33,003 nt of DNA from a virus, in the IMG/VR virus record IMGVR_UViG_3300028299_000015, positions 1 to 33,003 of that record; one strand, 5' to 3'. Made by a program: the position numbers and the translations under genes. The notes under the pieces were generated by a model. The model was not told where the DNA came from, searched no databases, and saw nothing but the letters and a program-made list of their open reading frames with translations. Of this stretch, positions 4,994-25,748 are shown piece by piece (the first letter of the stretch is position 1; every line of letters begins with the position of its first letter).

Positions 4994-5428
4994 TTATTTT
5001 AAGAATTCCTCTAATTGTTCCCGCGTATTATTTTTCTTGCCATATTTCTTATGAAATTCTCTATGAGCCTTTTCTGACAGAGTAATTCCATTATCGAGAG
5101 CAAGTCGTAATTCGGGATATTGAGAAAAGTTTTTGATATGATGTGGATGTAGATATTCTCCTTTTATACCATACTTTTGACATGTCCAATTGTCTCTGGC
5201 AAAAATTGCTTCACGCCATAGTCTATATTCTATTTTTGCCTTAAATATTTTTGACTCAGAGCTACTTCCGTTTTTCCAATTCCAGTGATTTTTCCCTCTA
5301 ATGTTGTCTCTTATCTTACCCCTGAAAATAGATGGTTTACCTTTCTGGAATCCATGAGTGTTCCCTATGGCAGACTTACTCATATGTTTTTTATGTATAT
5401 CGGTTTGTTTATATCCCTTTTTTGGCAT
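4994..5428 (-). CDS. HNH homing endonuclease in front of the capsid gene
   Basis: A 144-residue free-standing HNH endonuclease. The N-terminus (about 1-55) has basic NUMOD-like DNA-binding character. The core holds HHIKNFSQYPELRLALDNGI (catalytic His-His, then Asn) followed by HREFHKKYG. Its C-terminus EQLEEFLK is shared with the HNH at 16863-17438, so the two are paralogues. An AGAGG site lies 8 bases before the ATG. It stops 54 bases before the capsid TTG, in the same frame, and lies between two inverted repeat arms. These enzymes nick or cut DNA and spread their own gene; no structural role is expected. Confidence 0.93.
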   Translation of the reverse strand: MPKKGYKQTDIHKKHMSKSAIGNTHGFQKGKPSIFRGKIRDNIRGKNHWNWKNGSSSESKIFKAKIEYRLWREAIFARDNWTCQKYGIKGEYLHPHHIKNFSQYPELRLALDNGITLSEKAHREFHKKYGKKNNTREQLEEFLK

Positions 5429-6188: not shown

Positions 6189-6263
6189 TGGTTGCGGGAG
6201 AAGGATTTGCACCTCCGGTCTCGGCGTTATGAGCGCCGCGAACTGCTACTGTTCCATCCCGCT
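6189..6263 (-). tRNA. Initiator-type tRNA-Met (CAT) with encoded CCA
   Basis: A 75-base cloverleaf. Acceptor positions 2-7 are GCGGGA with TCCCGC; position 1:72 is an A-A mismatch; the D stem is GAAC/GTTC; the anticodon stem is CGGCG/CGCCG with loop CTCATAA (anticodon CAT); the T stem is GGAGG/CCTTC; the end is ACCA. The unpaired 1:72 position and the A11-U24 pair are bacterial initiator features, and the general layout follows tRNA-fMet. Deviations: the three anticodon-stem GC pairs are not in GGG/CCC orientation, the D loop (AGTAGCA) lacks the GG pair, and the T loop is TGCAAAT instead of TTC-. It lies between head genes and is flanked by two hairpins. Confidence 0.88.
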
Positions 6264-7203: not shown

Positions 7204-7737
7204 CTAGTTAACGAATCTTTGTTTAAAGAATTCAATCCAATATTCTCTGCGAAAATTGACCTTTGAATTACATCTTCTACAAAGTGTAATCAAATTTTCG
7301 GGATTACAATTCTTTTTATCATAGTCAATGTGATGAACCGTGTCGCCGTATTGACTACAATTCTGACAAATATAATTATCTCTTTCTCTAATTGCTCTTT
7401 TAAGAGTTTGCGTCCATTCTACAGGATAAGATTCAAAAGATACTCCACCCTTCCAATTCGAAGACTTCTCTCTCAATGCCTTGCCTTTTCTATTTATGGA
7501 CATTTTTTCTATCGATTCCTCTGAATGATGTTTACCCAACATTCCTTTTCCGTTGTTTTCGCTAATCTTATTTCTAGTTTCTTTTGAATGGTGTTTGCCC
7601 CTCATTCCATAATTAGGATTTATCTTAGCGTTTCTTACCCTTGCTTCTCTAAATAATGGTGTAATTTTTCTAGTCTTAGCTCCCTCGCTCATTCTTTTTA
7701 AAGCATATTCCGAACGTTTATAAACTCCCATTGGCAT
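7204..7737 (-). CDS. NUMOD3-HNH homing endonuclease
   Basis: A 177-residue endonuclease. Two NUMOD3-type DNA-binding repeats are visible (GKHHSKETRNKI and GKHHSEESIEKMS, about residues 48-80), then WKGGVSFESYPVEWTQTLK and the HNH core with CQNC, HHIDYDKKNCNPENLITLC and CNSK, ending NFRREYWIEFF. It is intact in all key residues. It sits between two head genes with short A/T-rich junctions. The same architecture occurs at 9201-9650 and as a fragment at 8284-8458. Confidence 0.96.
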   Translation of the reverse strand: MPMGVYKRSEYALKRMSEGAKTRKITPLFREARVRNAKINPNYGMRGKHHSKETRNKISENNGKGMLGKHHSEESIEKMSINRKGKALREKSSNWKGGVSFESYPVEWTQTLKRAIRERDNYICQNCSQYGDTVHHIDYDKKNCNPENLITLCRRCNSKVNFRREYWIEFFKQRFVN

Positions 7738-9200: not shown

Positions 9201-9650
9201 CTAGCTAAAATAAACTATCCAATATCCCCTATTAAAATTTGTTTTTTGGTGGCAACTGTCACAAAGAGAAATAAGATTTTTGGGGTCAAGGTTGTCTTTA
9301 TTATAATCTATATGATGAACAGACAATTTTTTGTGCCACCCCACTAATTCATTTTGATGTATTCCACAACCAGACATCTGACAAGTATGTTTGTCTCTTT
9401 TTCTAATACTTTCTTTTAAATCATCGGTCCAATCGCTTGGATACGGTTCTTCCCATATTCCACCCCGCCAATTTGGATTTTTATCTCCCCTTTGAGCTTT
9501 TCTAAGTTTATTTAAAATTTCTTCTGAAGGATGTCTTCCTATAATTCCATTAGGACCAAAACCGTTTTTATTTCCTTTCATCTTCTCCTTTATTTTTCTC
9601 TTAGTTTCTTCTGTGTGATGTTGGCCACTCATTCCTTTGCTTTTAGACAT
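9201..9650 (-). CDS. NUMOD3-HNH homing endonuclease
   Basis: A 149-residue endonuclease with two NUMOD3-like repeats (GQHHTEETKRKI, GRHPSEEILNKL, residues about 9-50), the linker WRGGIWEEPYPSDWTDDLK, and an HNH core: CQMSGC, HHIDYNKDNLDPKNLISLC, CHQK, NFNRGYW. It lies between the 119-aa gene and the scaffold-like gene. The 100 bases downstream (9100-9200) hold no gene but show a TCGACT/AGTCGA stem. Same architecture as 7204-7737. Confidence 0.95.
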   Translation of the reverse strand: MSKSKGMSGQHHTEETKRKIKEKMKGNKNGFGPNGIIGRHPSEEILNKLRKAQRGDKNPNWRGGIWEEPYPSDWTDDLKESIRKRDKHTCQMSGCGIHQNELVGWHKKLSVHHIDYNKDNLDPKNLISLCDSCHQKTNFNRGYWIVYFS

Positions 9651-16862: not shown

Positions 16863-17438
16863 TTATTTTAAAAATTCTTCCAATTGTTCTTTATTGTTAT
16901 TCTTTTGTCCATATATTTTATGAAATTCTTGATGTATTGCTCTCATCAATGTTATCCCGTTATTTATATTCCAAAGTTCCTCACATACCAACGCCTGTTC
17001 CAATGTCTTAATTTGATATTCTTCAATTATTTTACTCAATGATTTAATATGATGAGACTCAATTTCACCAATTTTTTGACCAGACTTTTGACAAGTATAA
17101 TTATATTTTTCAAATACATCAGACCGCCACTGACGATATTTAAAACAATCCCTTATTCTATTAACTAATAATTTAAGTCCCCCTTTACCGTCAGAATTTT
17201 TTAATATCCGAAGAGATTCACTTATCTTCTTTCTAGTTTCCATTGGAAGATGTTTTCCCCTCATTGATTCAGATATTTTTCTTCTAGTAGTTTCTGAAAA
17301 ATGTTTACCGAACATTGGATTTTTATCACCAATCATTAAACCAGTAAGAGATTCACTCAAATGTTTTTTATGTTCTTCTGACAATTTTCTACCCGCTTTG
17401 CGTAGATAAACGCCACTTCTTCCCTTTTTTCCTGCCAT
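16863..17438 (-). CDS. NUMOD3-HNH homing endonuclease
   Basis: A 191-residue enzyme with a basic N-terminus and three NUMOD3-like repeats (LSEEHKKHLSESLTG, GKHFSETTRRKISESMRG, GKHLPMETRKKISESLR, residues about 18-75), then CFKYRQWRSDVFEKYNYTCQ and an HNH core with ESHHIKSLSKII and WNINNGITLMRAIHQEFHKI. The C-terminus EQLEEFLK equals that of the HNH in front of the capsid gene. It lies between a duplicated structured element (17451-17667) and the ParB fragment. Confidence 0.95.
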   Translation of the reverse strand: MAGKKGRSGVYLRKAGRKLSEEHKKHLSESLTGLMIGDKNPMFGKHFSETTRRKISESMRGKHLPMETRKKISESLRILKNSDGKGGLKLLVNRIRDCFKYRQWRSDVFEKYNYTCQKSGQKIGEIESHHIKSLSKIIEEYQIKTLEQALVCEELWNINNGITLMRAIHQEFHKIYGQKNNNKEQLEEFLK

Positions 17439-18875: not shown

Positions 18876-19409
18876 CTATTCTCTTTGCCTTTTAACCCAG
18901 TGCTTATCGCCGAACATTGCCGTCTGATCCAGTCGCGCGTCTTCCCGTTCCGGCCCCATCGGCTCTGTTTCGAAAGTCTGCTCGAACTTCTCCGGAGGGA
19001 TAGAACTCTTCGGCGCATCCACTTTGTTGCCAGCCACCTCTCTTATTATATCACGTATACTGACCATTTCAACCGAGCTGTCAATCACCTGCCCATGGTA
19101 CGTCTTCATCTTGCGTGGCACGCGCGCCCGGCCCATGAAGAATTCCTTGCCCAGATCTGTTATCATCCAATATCCGGCATCCTGCGATCCATGGCCCATC
19201 TTCTTAACTATACTAAAATATTGAAGTTTTTGAAAATTATTATATTCGTTGATGTTTAGACCGAGATCATATGCCGGATGGACTTGATTCTTTTTAGTCT
19301 CTCTTATTTTTTGAGCGAACTTCTGGAATGCCTCGACTAGGCCCGGCGTTAAATTGTGCCAGTATGCCCGAATAGAACTACCACAAACCTCACAATGAGA
19401 ACTTTTCAT
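18876..19409 (-). CDS. Winged-helix DNA-binding protein with N-terminal zinc motif
   Basis: A 177-residue protein. CEVCGSS at residues 6-12 is half of a zinc ribbon; GLNINEYNNFQKLQYFSIVKK and YWMITDLGKEFFMGR (about 50-95) look like the helix and wing of a winged-helix domain; the last 60 residues are acidic and flexible. Proteins of this layout are frequent in phage early regions, where a transcription role is suspected but I know no proof. Its start overlaps the end of a truncated HNH gene. Confidence 0.6.
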   Translation of the reverse strand: MKSSHCEVCGSSIRAYWHNLTPGLVEAFQKFAQKIRETKKNQVHPAYDLGLNINEYNNFQKLQYFSIVKKMGHGSQDAGYWMITDLGKEFFMGRARVPRKMKTYHGQVIDSSVEMVSIRDIIREVAGNKVDAPKSSIPPEKFEQTFETEPMGPEREDARLDQTAMFGDKHWVKRQRE

Positions 19410-19701
19410 AAAATATTTTACTACTTATTAGCACTCTCGCTTGACGATACTTGAAACAATTTCTTACTTGAAAATATAATAAAGTAATTCCTCCTTGCCA
19501 ATTCCAGTGCTTTTCTCCTTTGTGAGAATATCTCATTTTTTCTTTAGTTAAATCAGAACATTTTAATCCCTTATGACCTTCTGATAAATTCTCCTTCCAT
19601 TTCTTTGACCTTGGTGGTCTTTCCTTACCAATCAATTTTTCTCTTATCTGCTGTTTAGTTTTTTCAGAACGTGGTCTATGTTGATAAATTCCTATTGGCA
19701 T
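19390..19701 (-). pseudogene. Truncated NUMOD3 homing endonuclease
   Basis: A 103-codon frame with a NUMOD3 N-terminus (SEKTKQQIREKLIGKERPPR, LTKEKMRYSHKGEKHWNWQG) and the linker FQVRNCFKYRQ that in the intact paralogue at 16863-17438 leads into the HNH core. After that the sequence loses homology (ARVLISSKIFYEKFSL) and stops inside the next gene. The HNH catalytic domain is gone. Only the DNA-binding half could be made. Confidence 0.85.
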
Positions 19702-20796: not shown

Positions 20797-21282
20797 TTAT
20801 TTAATAAGTAAGTTAGGATTCTCATAGATATTGAAAGTCTTCCATTTGCGACTATTACAATTTCTACAAAGTGGTTGTATATTTTTGATAAAATCTGTTC
20901 CACCCAAAGAAAGAGGCTTAATATGGTCTTTAGTTAGTTTCTTATTCTCACCACATTTAGCACATTTATAATTAAATTTTTTACATAACTTCTGCCAATC
21001 TTCAAGAGTATGAGAGCCTTTAGCATATTTTTCTCTGGCATATCTTCTCGCTTTAAGGTGGGCAATTCTTTCTGGGTGTAATTTGGCATATCTTTTATAA
21101 TAAACTTGCTTATTTTCTCCTATTTTTCTTATGCCCCTATAGGCAAATTGCTCTTGAAATGGAAGTTTTGTTTTTCGAAATTCTGAATAACATTTTTGAT
21201 TACAAAAAACTCTCTTATATCGTTTAATAATTGATGGCTTTTTAATAACTTTCTTATTACAATTTGAACATTTTGTTAGCAT
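20797..21282 (-). CDS. HNH endonuclease with N-terminal zinc finger
   Basis: A 161-residue protein. The N-terminal CSNCNKK...CNQKCYSEF is a treble-clef-like zinc site. The C-terminal HNH core is CAKCGENKKLTKDHIKPLSL, GGTDFIKNIQPLCRNCNSRK (Cys2 pair, DH, N, Cys2 pair), complete in all catalytic and zinc residues. It is of the McrA/HNH type rather than NUMOD3. It lies between YopX and the unknown 177-aa gene. A homing role is likely from its company. Confidence 0.95.
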   Translation of the reverse strand: MLTKCSNCNKKVIKKPSIIKRYKRVFCNQKCYSEFRKTKLPFQEQFAYRGIRKIGENKQVYYKRYAKLHPERIAHLKARRYAREKYAKGSHTLEDWQKLCKKFNYKCAKCGENKKLTKDHIKPLSLGGTDFIKNIQPLCRNCNSRKWKTFNIYENPNLLIK

Positions 21283-23629: not shown

Positions 23630-24235
23630 CTATAAATACTTTTTTAATTTATTTTTTATAGTTAATTCGCTCAACTCTCCCGCAAAATCGTTCCAATCGT
23701 TTCGGCCAGGACCAATAGAAACTCGCAATTTACCCTGGCTAAAGACTACGCGCTGGCCCAGATAAAAGGCCTGGACTCTCCCTTCTTTTAAATCTCCTAA
23801 TGTCCGATTCTGTTGTTTTAAATTACCACCCACTGTGTTGTCCTTGATACTGTCACTGTACTGTCTTATATTAGAATTTCCCTTTAGGGCAAATCTCCCA
23901 TCCTTATGGGCAAATCTCCCATCCTTATGGGCAAATCTCTTTTTTGCCTTATTGAGCCTTATAATCAATCCGTATGGCGTTCTTGTGAGCATTAAATATC
24001 CTTTGTTTTTTAATTTATTGAGATTTTTAGATATTTTAGGCTCCGTAATGCCTATTTCGTTCGCTATCTCTTTAAGATTTACCGGTTTACCTCCTAGAAT
24101 ATAGCCAATTCCTTCATCATCAACTTTAGTAATTTTATCTAAGCACCACATAAATTCCCACACAGCAGTTCCCATCGCCTTTCTATGCTTTGGGTCTAAG
24201 AGATTGTTTGTTACTTCTATGTAAAATCCCTTCAT
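23630..24235 (-). CDS. Winged-helix replication initiator candidate
   Basis: A 201-residue protein. The start (MKGFYIEVTNNLLDPKHRKA, then MGTAVWEFMWCLDKITKVDD) and the helix-turn-helix part KEIANEIGITEPKISKNLNK (about 53-73) with a wing GYLMLTRTPYGLIIRLN match a common phage family of initiator or DnaD-like proteins. Residues about 98-115 repeat RFAHKDG. The underlying 21-bp DNA repeats look like iterons. Its place ahead of nuclease and SSB-like genes fits replication. A transcription regulator is the alternative. Confidence 0.65.
   Translation of the reverse strand: MKGFYIEVTNNLLDPKHRKAMGTAVWEFMWCLDKITKVDDEGIGYILGGKPVNLKEIANEIGITEPKISKNLNKLKNKGYLMLTRTPYGLIIRLNKAKKRFAHKDGRFAHKDGRFALKGNSNIRQYSDSIKDNTVGGNLKQQNRTLGDLKEGRVQAFYLGQRVVFSQGKLRVSIGPGRNDWNDFAGELSELTIKNKLKKYL
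23890..23940 (-). repeat. Two and a half 21-bp direct repeats in the initiator gene
   Basis: On the plus strand CAAATCTCCCATCCTTATGG plus G occurs at 23890-23910 and 23911-23931, followed by a partial copy to 23940. The unit is a multiple of three and encodes RFAHKDG. Phage replication origins are often formed by such repeats inside the initiator gene (as in lambda O), so these may be initiator-binding iterons. Confidence 0.9.
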
Positions 24236-24298: not shown

Positions 24299-24463
24299 TC
24301 AACTTGGCTTATCGTAATCTTGTGCTATAACGAGGCAGATATAATCCTCTCCACTTTCTTTAATCTCTCCGACATAACTTTCTCTTTTTCCTTTAGATAT
24401 AAAATTATCTACCAGTACAGATATTTTGTGTCCAATTAACTTGTCAAAAATTTCTTTGTTCAT
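24299..24463 (-). CDS. Small 54-codon protein downstream of the structured leader
   Basis: The frame starts MNKEIFDKLIGHKISVLVDN and reads on as a small beta-like protein (SYVGEIKESGEDYICLVIA) to TGA. It is the first gene after the promoter at 24582-24609 and its folded leader. It precedes the initiator candidate by about 60 bases. A plain A/T-rich leader precedes the ATG. Function unknown; its position makes it the gene the leader would control first. Confidence 0.6.
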   Translation of the reverse strand: MNKEIFDKLIGHKISVLVDNFISKGKRESYVGEIKESGEDYICLVIAQDYDKPS

Positions 24464-24472
24464 AGTTTATTT

Positions 24473-24583
24473 CTTAATAAGCAAAATGCTGGCGATAGGA
24501 TCAAATCTTTTTCCCTTGCGAGAAATCGGTTTGATTGCGCTCACCAGCATTTTGCTTCCTATCAATTTAGAGCGCTTATTAAG
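24473..24583 (-). promoter_or_regulatory. Multiply self-complementary leader or origin element
   Basis: Five complementary pairs lie in 111 bases: TTATTAAG/CTTAATAA (24576-24583 with 24473-24480), GAGCGC/GCGCTC (24570-24575 with 24537-24542), TCCTATC/GATAGGA (24557-24563 with 24494-24500), CCAGCATTTTGC/GCAAAATGCTGG (24544-24555 with 24481-24492), TTTGAT/ATCAAA (24530-24535 with 24500-24505). The 12-pair stem excludes or pseudoknots with two of the others, so alternative folds are possible. It follows a promoter and ends about 10 bases before a start codon. It could be a switch-like leader or a replication-origin structure. Confidence 0.7.
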
Positions 24584-24609
24584 TATAAACCATTTTCACT
24601 GTTTGTCAA
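24582..24609 (-). promoter_or_regulatory. Sigma70-type promoter
   Basis: On the minus strand TTGACA (24609-24604), a 16-base spacer and TATACT (24587-24582). Both hexamers are at or one base from consensus. The start site would fall near 24575, at the first base of the GCGCTC segment of the folded leader. It would drive the 54-aa gene, the initiator candidate and the nuclease/SSB block. Confidence 0.7.
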
Positions 24610-24654
24610 AGAAGTTTTCCCCCTTTGTCTATTGTTGTCCCCACCTTTATGCCC

Positions 24655-25146
24655 TTATCTTAGAATTTCTACGAGTTTATTCTGCCGGCCCCACTGCATT
24701 GCCTCTTCGTAGTTGAATCCCAATATGTCAAAGTAATTGCCATTTCTATATCTTAGCCCCATCCTATCCTCGCATGTCATCACGATCCCATCTATTCTGA
24801 CTTTCTGCCCGAATGCCAGGTACCCTGGGCATGCCACCGTGCCGAGATAGACTTCCTTGCCGCTGGCCATAATATTTGGCGTATCATCACACTGGCCCGC
24901 TACCGGATTATACATTGTCACCTCTGCCTCGATTATCTGCGGTATTTCCGGCTGCACATAAAAATAACTTTGTGGTGCACTGACTGGTGTGGCGTTAGAT
25001 AAATGAGGTAGTCTTTTTAAAACCATCCCTTTACACACCAGCCAGATGCAGACCACTAATAGGATTATTATCAGCAACCAACTGAAGACGTTTGGCATTC
25101 TCCTTGGCTGATATTTTTGGATGCTGTCGACAAATATTTTTTTCAT
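24655..25146 (-). CDS. Membrane-anchored 3D-domain muralytic protein
   Basis: A 163-residue protein. Residues about 20-40 (VFSWLLIIILLVVCIWLVCK) form one membrane helix after a basic N-terminus. Residues about 72-163 are a 3D domain (double-psi barrel, as in MltA and firmicute resuscitation-type proteins): EAEVTMYNPVAGQCDDTPN, IMASGKEVYLGTVACPGYLA, CEDRMGLRYRNGNYFDI, with the conserved Asp residues. It probably cleaves peptidoglycan at the cell surface during lysis or entry. It is separated from the main lysis pair by the HTH/HNH genes. Confidence 0.88.
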   Translation of the reverse strand: MKKIFVDSIQKYQPRRMPNVFSWLLIIILLVVCIWLVCKGMVLKRLPHLSNATPVSAPQSYFYVQPEIPQIIEAEVTMYNPVAGQCDDTPNIMASGKEVYLGTVACPGYLAFGQKVRIDGIVMTCEDRMGLRYRNGNYFDILGFNYEEAMQWGRQNKLVEILR

Positions 25147-25322: not shown

Positions 25323-25748
25323 TTATTTTAATCTGCTGTGAATTATCTGGCACACCCTGCCATCCGAAATATTAAAAAGACGGGCGACTTCTTTCATCGT
25401 AAATCCCCGCTTGTGTGCACTAATTATTCTCTCATTGCGATTTTTTATTATTTTGATTCTCCTTTGATTCTTCCCATTCTCTCCGTTGACATTTCGTTTA
25501 ATAAACTGACAGTTCATACAAAGAGTCTGATGACCTTTTGGATAATTATTTTTTTTAAGCCACGGATAAGTTGATTTCGTTCTATTCTCTCTCCTAAACT
25601 TAGCCCCATCACCGTTGATGTGATCTATACTCAATGCCCTTATATCATTAAAACCACATTGAACACATTTTAGTACGCCATTCCCATAATGTGTCAACAC
25701 TTCTTTTTTTAAGAGTAAAGATTTATTTTTTCTATATTCTTGGTTCAT
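25323..25748 (-). CDS. HNH endonuclease with C-terminal helix-turn-helix
   Basis: A 141-residue protein. CVQCGFNDIRALSIDHINGD and TLCMNCQFIKR form a complete HNH/zinc core (residues about 28-92). The C-terminus (ISAHKRGFTMKEVARLFNIS then DGRVCQII) is a helix-turn-helix of resolvase type that would give target recognition. The ATG overlaps the stop of a 50-aa helix-turn-helix gene (ATGA), so the two are coupled. It is more likely a mobile endonuclease than a packaging HNH, since it lies far from the terminase. Confidence 0.93.
   Translation of the reverse strand: MNQEYRKNKSLLLKKEVLTHYGNGVLKCVQCGFNDIRALSIDHINGDGAKFRRENRTKSTYPWLKKNNYPKGHQTLCMNCQFIKRNVNGENGKNQRRIKIIKNRNERIISAHKRGFTMKEVARLFNISDGRVCQIIHSRLK

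Follow-up and report, generated by a model that had tools for sequence, protein, structure and literature searches.

In phage P4, the CI RNA is processed from an untranslated primary transcript and pairs with two segments, seqA upstream and seqC downstream, and this pairing ends transcription prematurely, ahead of the replication genes (PMC4825925). Attenuators of the pT181/pIP501 type place a terminator hairpin directly before the initiator gene and use an upstream segment to delay or prevent it, and pT181 needs an antisense RNA (PMC4878617). For replication control in the uncultured phages considered here, we found nothing in the literature searched. We analyzed a locus in a DNA stretch of 33,003 nucleotides (the window: IMG/VR record IMGVR_UViG_3300028299_000015, positions 1 to 33,003), for which an initial annotation had proposed a promoter followed by a leader of alternative pairings, either a regulatory RNA or an origin element, ahead of a candidate replication initiator.

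Results

Every long gene in this 33-kb virus record is encoded on the minus strand, and the element is the 5' leader of the early replication operon, between a lysis-side gene and the early module (Table 1). The TTGACA-16-TATACT promoter of the initial annotation was confirmed on the minus strand (24609-24604 and 24587-24582). This strong early promoter matches the consensus at 11 of 12 positions, outscores 97.7% of comparable window stretches and is the best promoter-like site in 24464-24620; in many relatives, an extended -10 element resembling TGGTATAAT lies upstream of the hairpin. Transcription is expected to start at about 24574-24576, that is, at segment E. Stem A shares positions with both the -10 box and the expected +1 and lies mostly upstream of +1, so its 5' arm is mostly absent from the RNA and full A pairing is impossible there. 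A start codon does follow the leader, at 24463, just downstream; it opens a 54-aa ORF for which our searches found no relatives, and the initiator candidate is the second gene of the operon. The early module also holds a PD-(D/E)XK exonuclease. Elsewhere, at least seven minus-strand ORFs scattered through the genome resemble, by eye, HNH/NUMOD-type homing endonucleases, and the phage carries one tRNA-Met gene.

Table 1. Features of the leader, its operon and the rest of the window.
Feature	Position	Strand	Remarks
Intergenic stretch	24464-24620	minus	between lysis-side gene and early module
Lysis-side gene	24655-25146		upstream of leader
-35 box	24604-24609	minus	TTGACA; early promoter
-10 box	24582-24587	minus	TATACT (TGGTTTATACT); spacer to -35 of 16
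A stem	24473-24482/24574-24583	minus	10 bp
E, 5' strand	24570-24575	minus	GCGCTC; transcript 5' end; 6 bp with E'; crosses C
B, 5' strand	24557-24563	minus	GATAGGA; between E and C; 7 bp with B'; crosses C
C, 5' arm of main stem	24541-24557	minus	AAGCAAAATGCTGGTGA; pairs with C'
E'	24537-24542	minus	GAGCGC; loop segment immediately after C 5' arm; pairs with E
D, imperfect inner loop hairpin	24500-24535	minus	24522-24535 with 24500-24513
F	24521-24526	minus	ATTTCT; in loop; could pair with F'; weak, p 0.11
B'	24494-24500	minus	TCCTATC; loop end just before C'
C', 3' arm of main stem	24479-24495	minus	TCGCCAGCATTTTGCTT; pairs with C
F'	24469-24474	minus	AGAAAT; purine-rich; upstream of 54-aa ORF near its start codon
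Possible 27-codon leader ORF	24467-24550	minus	MLVSAIKPISRKGKRFDPIASILLIKK, then stop; AGGA upstream; stop 3 nt before next ATG
54-aa ORF	24299-24463	minus	operon gene 1
DnaD-like helicase loader (replication initiator candidate)	23630-24235	minus	operon gene 2; phrog_7498, E 2.6e-24
HNH/NUMOD-like ORFs	4994-5428, 7204-7737, 9201-9650, 16863-17438, 19390-19701, 20797-21282, 25323-25748	minus	by eye
tRNA-Met (CAT) gene	6189-6263	minus	phage-borne

All five complementary segment pairs that had been described, A to E, could be located by coordinates, and the long stem crossed by stems of six and seven pairs is C, crossed by E and B. C and C' span 17 nt with one G-T pair and a perfect core of 14 bp, which is the sole perfect inverted repeat of at least 12 bp within 140 nt in the whole window; when the segment was dinucleotide-shuffled 2000 times, such a repeat arose twice, and the leader RNA has a minimum free energy of -38.8 kcal/mol (z = -5.0 versus shuffles). 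That the C stem is real is certain. When C was held fixed and the remainder shuffled, 3.3% of the shuffles contained helices of 7 bp or more and 6 bp or more that crossed it, and for the window alone the p-values are 0.05 for E/E', 0.03 for the crossing by B and E together and 0.11 for F; the crossing of C by B and E, taken alone in this window, is suggestive. Given the short linkers, the geometry indicates that E/E' and C/C' should be mutually exclusive. We also observed that inverted similarity extends beyond the element (24447-24470 with 24585-24618), with the promoter region mirrored at the beginning of the 54-aa gene.

BLAST searches of phages and plasmids, and a search with a 26-mer, found no homologue of the window leader, and neither the 54-aa ORF nor the upstream 163-aa protein led to closer leader homologues. 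The window leader has no close homologue because, of the two closest loader genes (75-78% identical), one starts its contig and the other has an HNH gene directly upstream. The initial annotation had likened the leader to riboswitches and copy-control RNAs. Membership in such a family was rejected, as there was no Rfam match at the gathering threshold for this leader or those of 15 relatives (at E up to 5, matches were at chance level only), and leaders are not enriched in antisense promoters.

We gathered relatives with the loader protein and its alignments, which gave about 35 distinct relatives from viral contigs, plus one from a Patescibacteria metagenome-assembled genome (MAG). This MAG was the only host genome in which a loader gene was found, so the host is assigned via a distant relative only. 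Nucleotide similarity among relatives begins at the loader ATG or slightly upstream, and their leaders are either identical (L023/L024, L045/L058) or unalignable. In many relatives, a long hairpin nevertheless stops 3-33 nt short of the first gene, and in every case with a recognised promoter it lies downstream of that promoter and upstream of the start codon. In a set of 37 relatives, the 110-nt stretch preceding the first early gene ranks within the top 1% of structure of their locus in 7 cases (0.4 expected) and within the top 5% in 11 (1.9 expected). About half of the relatives lack structure directly at the loader gene, in most cases those in which another gene on the same strand precedes it; L033 resembles the window in having the element one small ORF upstream of the loader. 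Strong hairpins that lack an E/E' pairing occur in L013 and L018, and the hairpins of L016 and L020 were dropped as too weak or coding.

The same layout of a promoter, a hairpin abutting the first gene and a loop complementary to its flank recurs in about a dozen distant relatives whose leader sequences look unrelated. Pairings between the loop and the segment upstream of C are CTCTTGGG/CCCAAGAG in L029, AATCTTGGG/CCCAAGATT in L033, AGCTTTCA/TGAAAGCT in L056, CATTGGG/CCCAATG in L017, CTACGA/TCGTAG in L023 and ACTTAAT/ATTAAGT in L006, and in L006, L021 and L025 the loop has a further pairing, with the segment that follows C' around the start codon (6, 8 and 12 bp, respectively). A single inverted duplication cannot be the source of the E-C-E'-C' order, which is not that of a simple palindrome. 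Because unrelated-looking leaders of one layout precede the replication gene in distant relatives, the leader is probably an RNA switch that sets the amount of replication protein.

In L031, L041, L045 (identical to L058), L047 and L048, a second leader type lies roughly 100-180 nt ahead of the loader gene; it consists of a promoter-like site, a long-range stem of 11-22 bp enclosing 62-86 nt and then an intrinsic terminator beside the start codon. The loops of this type have only short words in common, such as GAGGGT, and a shared aptamer was rejected for these five loci, no convincing common fold being found. Further long hairpins (score 40) lie away from the loader gene in L019 (3493-3569) and L026 (5057-5160).

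We compared each loop with its own flanks in 12 leaders, against swapped loops and also against shuffled loops. The leader group had been picked by eye from scans ahead of the formal tests, with hand-set arm boundaries and without E/E' as a selection criterion. Loops scored 191 against their own upstream flank and 135 +/- 9 when swapped (0 of 20,000 permutations), and against their own 3' flank the p-value was 0.015. Self-complementarity of loop and flank is thus phage-specific at the level of the group, and fast sequence divergence with self-complementarity kept is what one expects if specificity for self matters.

Prefix folding of the window leader gave E/E' as the minimum-energy state once E' has just been transcribed (-10.5 kcal/mol), as it did in L017, L021, L023, L029, L033 and L056, and in longer transcripts C/C' beats E/E' by about 10-20 kcal/mol. 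We infer the mechanism, direction and trigger of the leader as follows. As RNA polymerase clears the promoter, the transcript 5' end (E) is predicted by folding to pair with E', enclosing the C 5' arm in a loop. Synthesis of C' would then allow the more stable C/C' hairpin to form just before the first start codon and to displace E/E'. This hairpin would terminate transcription or restrict ribosome access, so that the replication genes would be expressed from a fraction of transcripts. Formation of C/C' would also expose E and the loop segments E', B' and F, and, by analogy with P4 CI, accumulated leader RNA might pair in trans with new transcripts, with expression falling as copy number rises. 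That the leader is a self-complementary RNA switch of the early replication operon, in which C/C' replaces E/E', is the reading we favor, with moderate confidence.

A terminator-like stem with a U-tract precedes the first gene in L013, L017, L023, L029, L031, L041, L045, L048, L054 and L056, and U-tracts are poor in the window, L006, L021 and L025. The window's U-tract score of 2.56 is below those of the terminator-bearing relatives, and a pattern tool reports no terminator. Leaders with a terminator would act through termination and those with poor U-tracts through ribosome access, a split made post hoc. Upstream genes are divergent in several relatives, with the promoter between, and for these the hairpin is therefore not the terminator of the upstream operon. 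Integrase and resolvase families were absent from 16 of 16 records searched and HTH_3 repressors from 15 of 16 (records may be fragments), which makes copy control or timing likelier than lysogenic immunity.

These data also bear on a purely cis-acting attenuator or kinetic timer, in which the hairpin stops a fixed share of transcripts and no trans-acting RNA is involved. The terminators that stand directly before the first gene of about ten relatives would suit it, E/E' would be its transient nascent hairpin, and the failure to find an antisense promoter agrees with it. The window, however, has no good U-tract, and the specificity of loops for their own flanks, together with the total divergence of the leaders, is left unexplained unless pairing serves cis folding only; we regard this explanation as possible, if on the unlikely side.

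An improbable alternative is leader-peptide attenuation, in which a ribosome on a short leader ORF selects E/E' or C/C' and is coupled to the next gene. The window's 27-codon ORF, which may be a chance occurrence, stops 3 nt before the next ATG, and similar ORFs are present in L023, L025, L033 and L056. In L029 (185-204), L033 (3630-3652) and L056 (2895-2915), the ATG of a leader ORF of about 30 codons lies exactly 6 nt past the -10 box, as in leaderless mRNAs. However, coupled ORFs occur in 6 of 16 cases against 2.5 expected, a weak excess, homology among the peptides is unclear and several leaders have none.

To compare strands, stems in the leaders of all 37 loci were identified under scoring in which G-T and A-C count the same. 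A G-T on the sense strand corresponds to G-U in the leader RNA and an A-C to G-U in an antisense RNA, and an excess of G-T over A-C mismatches is not expected of a DNA palindrome. The G-T:A-C ratio was 29:6 in leader stems versus 92:104 in control hairpins, and 38:6 versus 252:313 under a softer penalty; the hardest penalty left only 8:3 versus 39:24 (p 0.11). The window stem itself contributes one G-T, the strand signature being a property of the group. Since G-T exceeds A-C in leader stems, this group evidence indicates that pairing is selected in the sense-strand RNA and not as a DNA palindrome or an antisense RNA.

This asymmetry weighs heavily on a DNA-level element, in which inverted repeats would serve as a replication origin, a cruciform or an operator for a protein and RNA folding would be a by-product. 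Its location before replication genes and the partial inverted similarity that reaches promoter and gene start (24447-24470 with 24585-24618) are as such an element would have them, but the crossing order of segments is not palindromic and hairpins keep to the interval from promoter to start codon in all cases with a recognised promoter, and we consider it quite improbable. Copy control by an antisense RNA transcribed from the opposite strand, as in pT181 or R1, is very improbable despite the pT181-like layout of a terminator beside the initiator gene and a pre-empting upstream segment, as antisense promoter scores in the leaders are at background (mean rank 0.52, no enrichment) and wobble pairs favor the sense strand. 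Of the two roles initially offered, the origin element is thus not supported, given the G-T excess, and a regulatory RNA with alternative pairings before replication genes is supported by a layout that recurs before homologous DnaD-like genes, by phage-specific loop pairing and by the sense-strand G-U signature.

Discussion

Our findings suggest an RNA switch conserved by architecture and not by sequence, and hence invisible to covariance-model libraries; such a switch would suggest that P4-like self-targeting leaders have arisen or spread far beyond enterobacterial satellites. More tentatively, and at a probability that we judge low, these leaders may form a widespread, fast-diversifying class, each attenuated leader doubling as the regulator that acts in trans on the replication operon and senses copy number. 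If true, these uncultured phages, at least one relative of which lies in a Patescibacteria genome, would have an incompatibility system based on sense-strand RNA, with neither a protein repressor nor an antisense promoter. A construct of about 150 bp would make the idea directly testable.

Among the known systems, HK022 put acts on RNA polymerase and suppresses pausing and termination, and complementary loops are not known to be part of that system. What put has in common with the leader proposed here is that a structured nascent RNA would act on early transcription of the phage (PMC9378689). In phages P1 and P7, C4 is an antisense RNA that is processed from a larger transcript and acts near the ribosome sites of phage mRNAs (PMC5320573), as our leader RNA may do; unlike C4, our leaders match no Rfam family at the gathering threshold and have no C4-type three-stem structure. 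The pT181/pIP501-type attenuators resemble our leaders in the order of upstream segment, terminator hairpin and initiator gene, with the terminator clear in about ten relatives and not in the window (tail score 2.56, no pattern-tool match). Here, however, the upstream segment pairs with the hairpin loop and not with its 5' arm, and no antisense promoter of the kind pT181 would require was found.

The best reading, by analogy, is that the leader works like P4 CI RNA, its closest working analogue. When our leader scanner was run on P4 (NC_001609), the top match was a hairpin at 8501-8426 with a 10-bp match between loop and 3' flank over the ribosome site, which we take to be CI RNA with seqB/seqC. 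In both systems, and in the window itself, the RNA is the untranslated leader of a replication operon downstream of its promoter, and a long hairpin carries a loop complementary to the segment upstream of it, downstream of it or both, the 3' one over a ribosome site; this complementarity is found for our group and is modest for the window alone (p 0.05, 0.11). We do not claim membership of the P4 CI family, because there is no sequence or model match and a trans-acting processed RNA is an analogy only. In contrast to P4, the phage leaders here have no sequence similarity to CI, their hairpin abuts the first gene, their complementary segments are 6-12 bp and near the stem, and many relatives have an intrinsic terminator, with no integrase seen.
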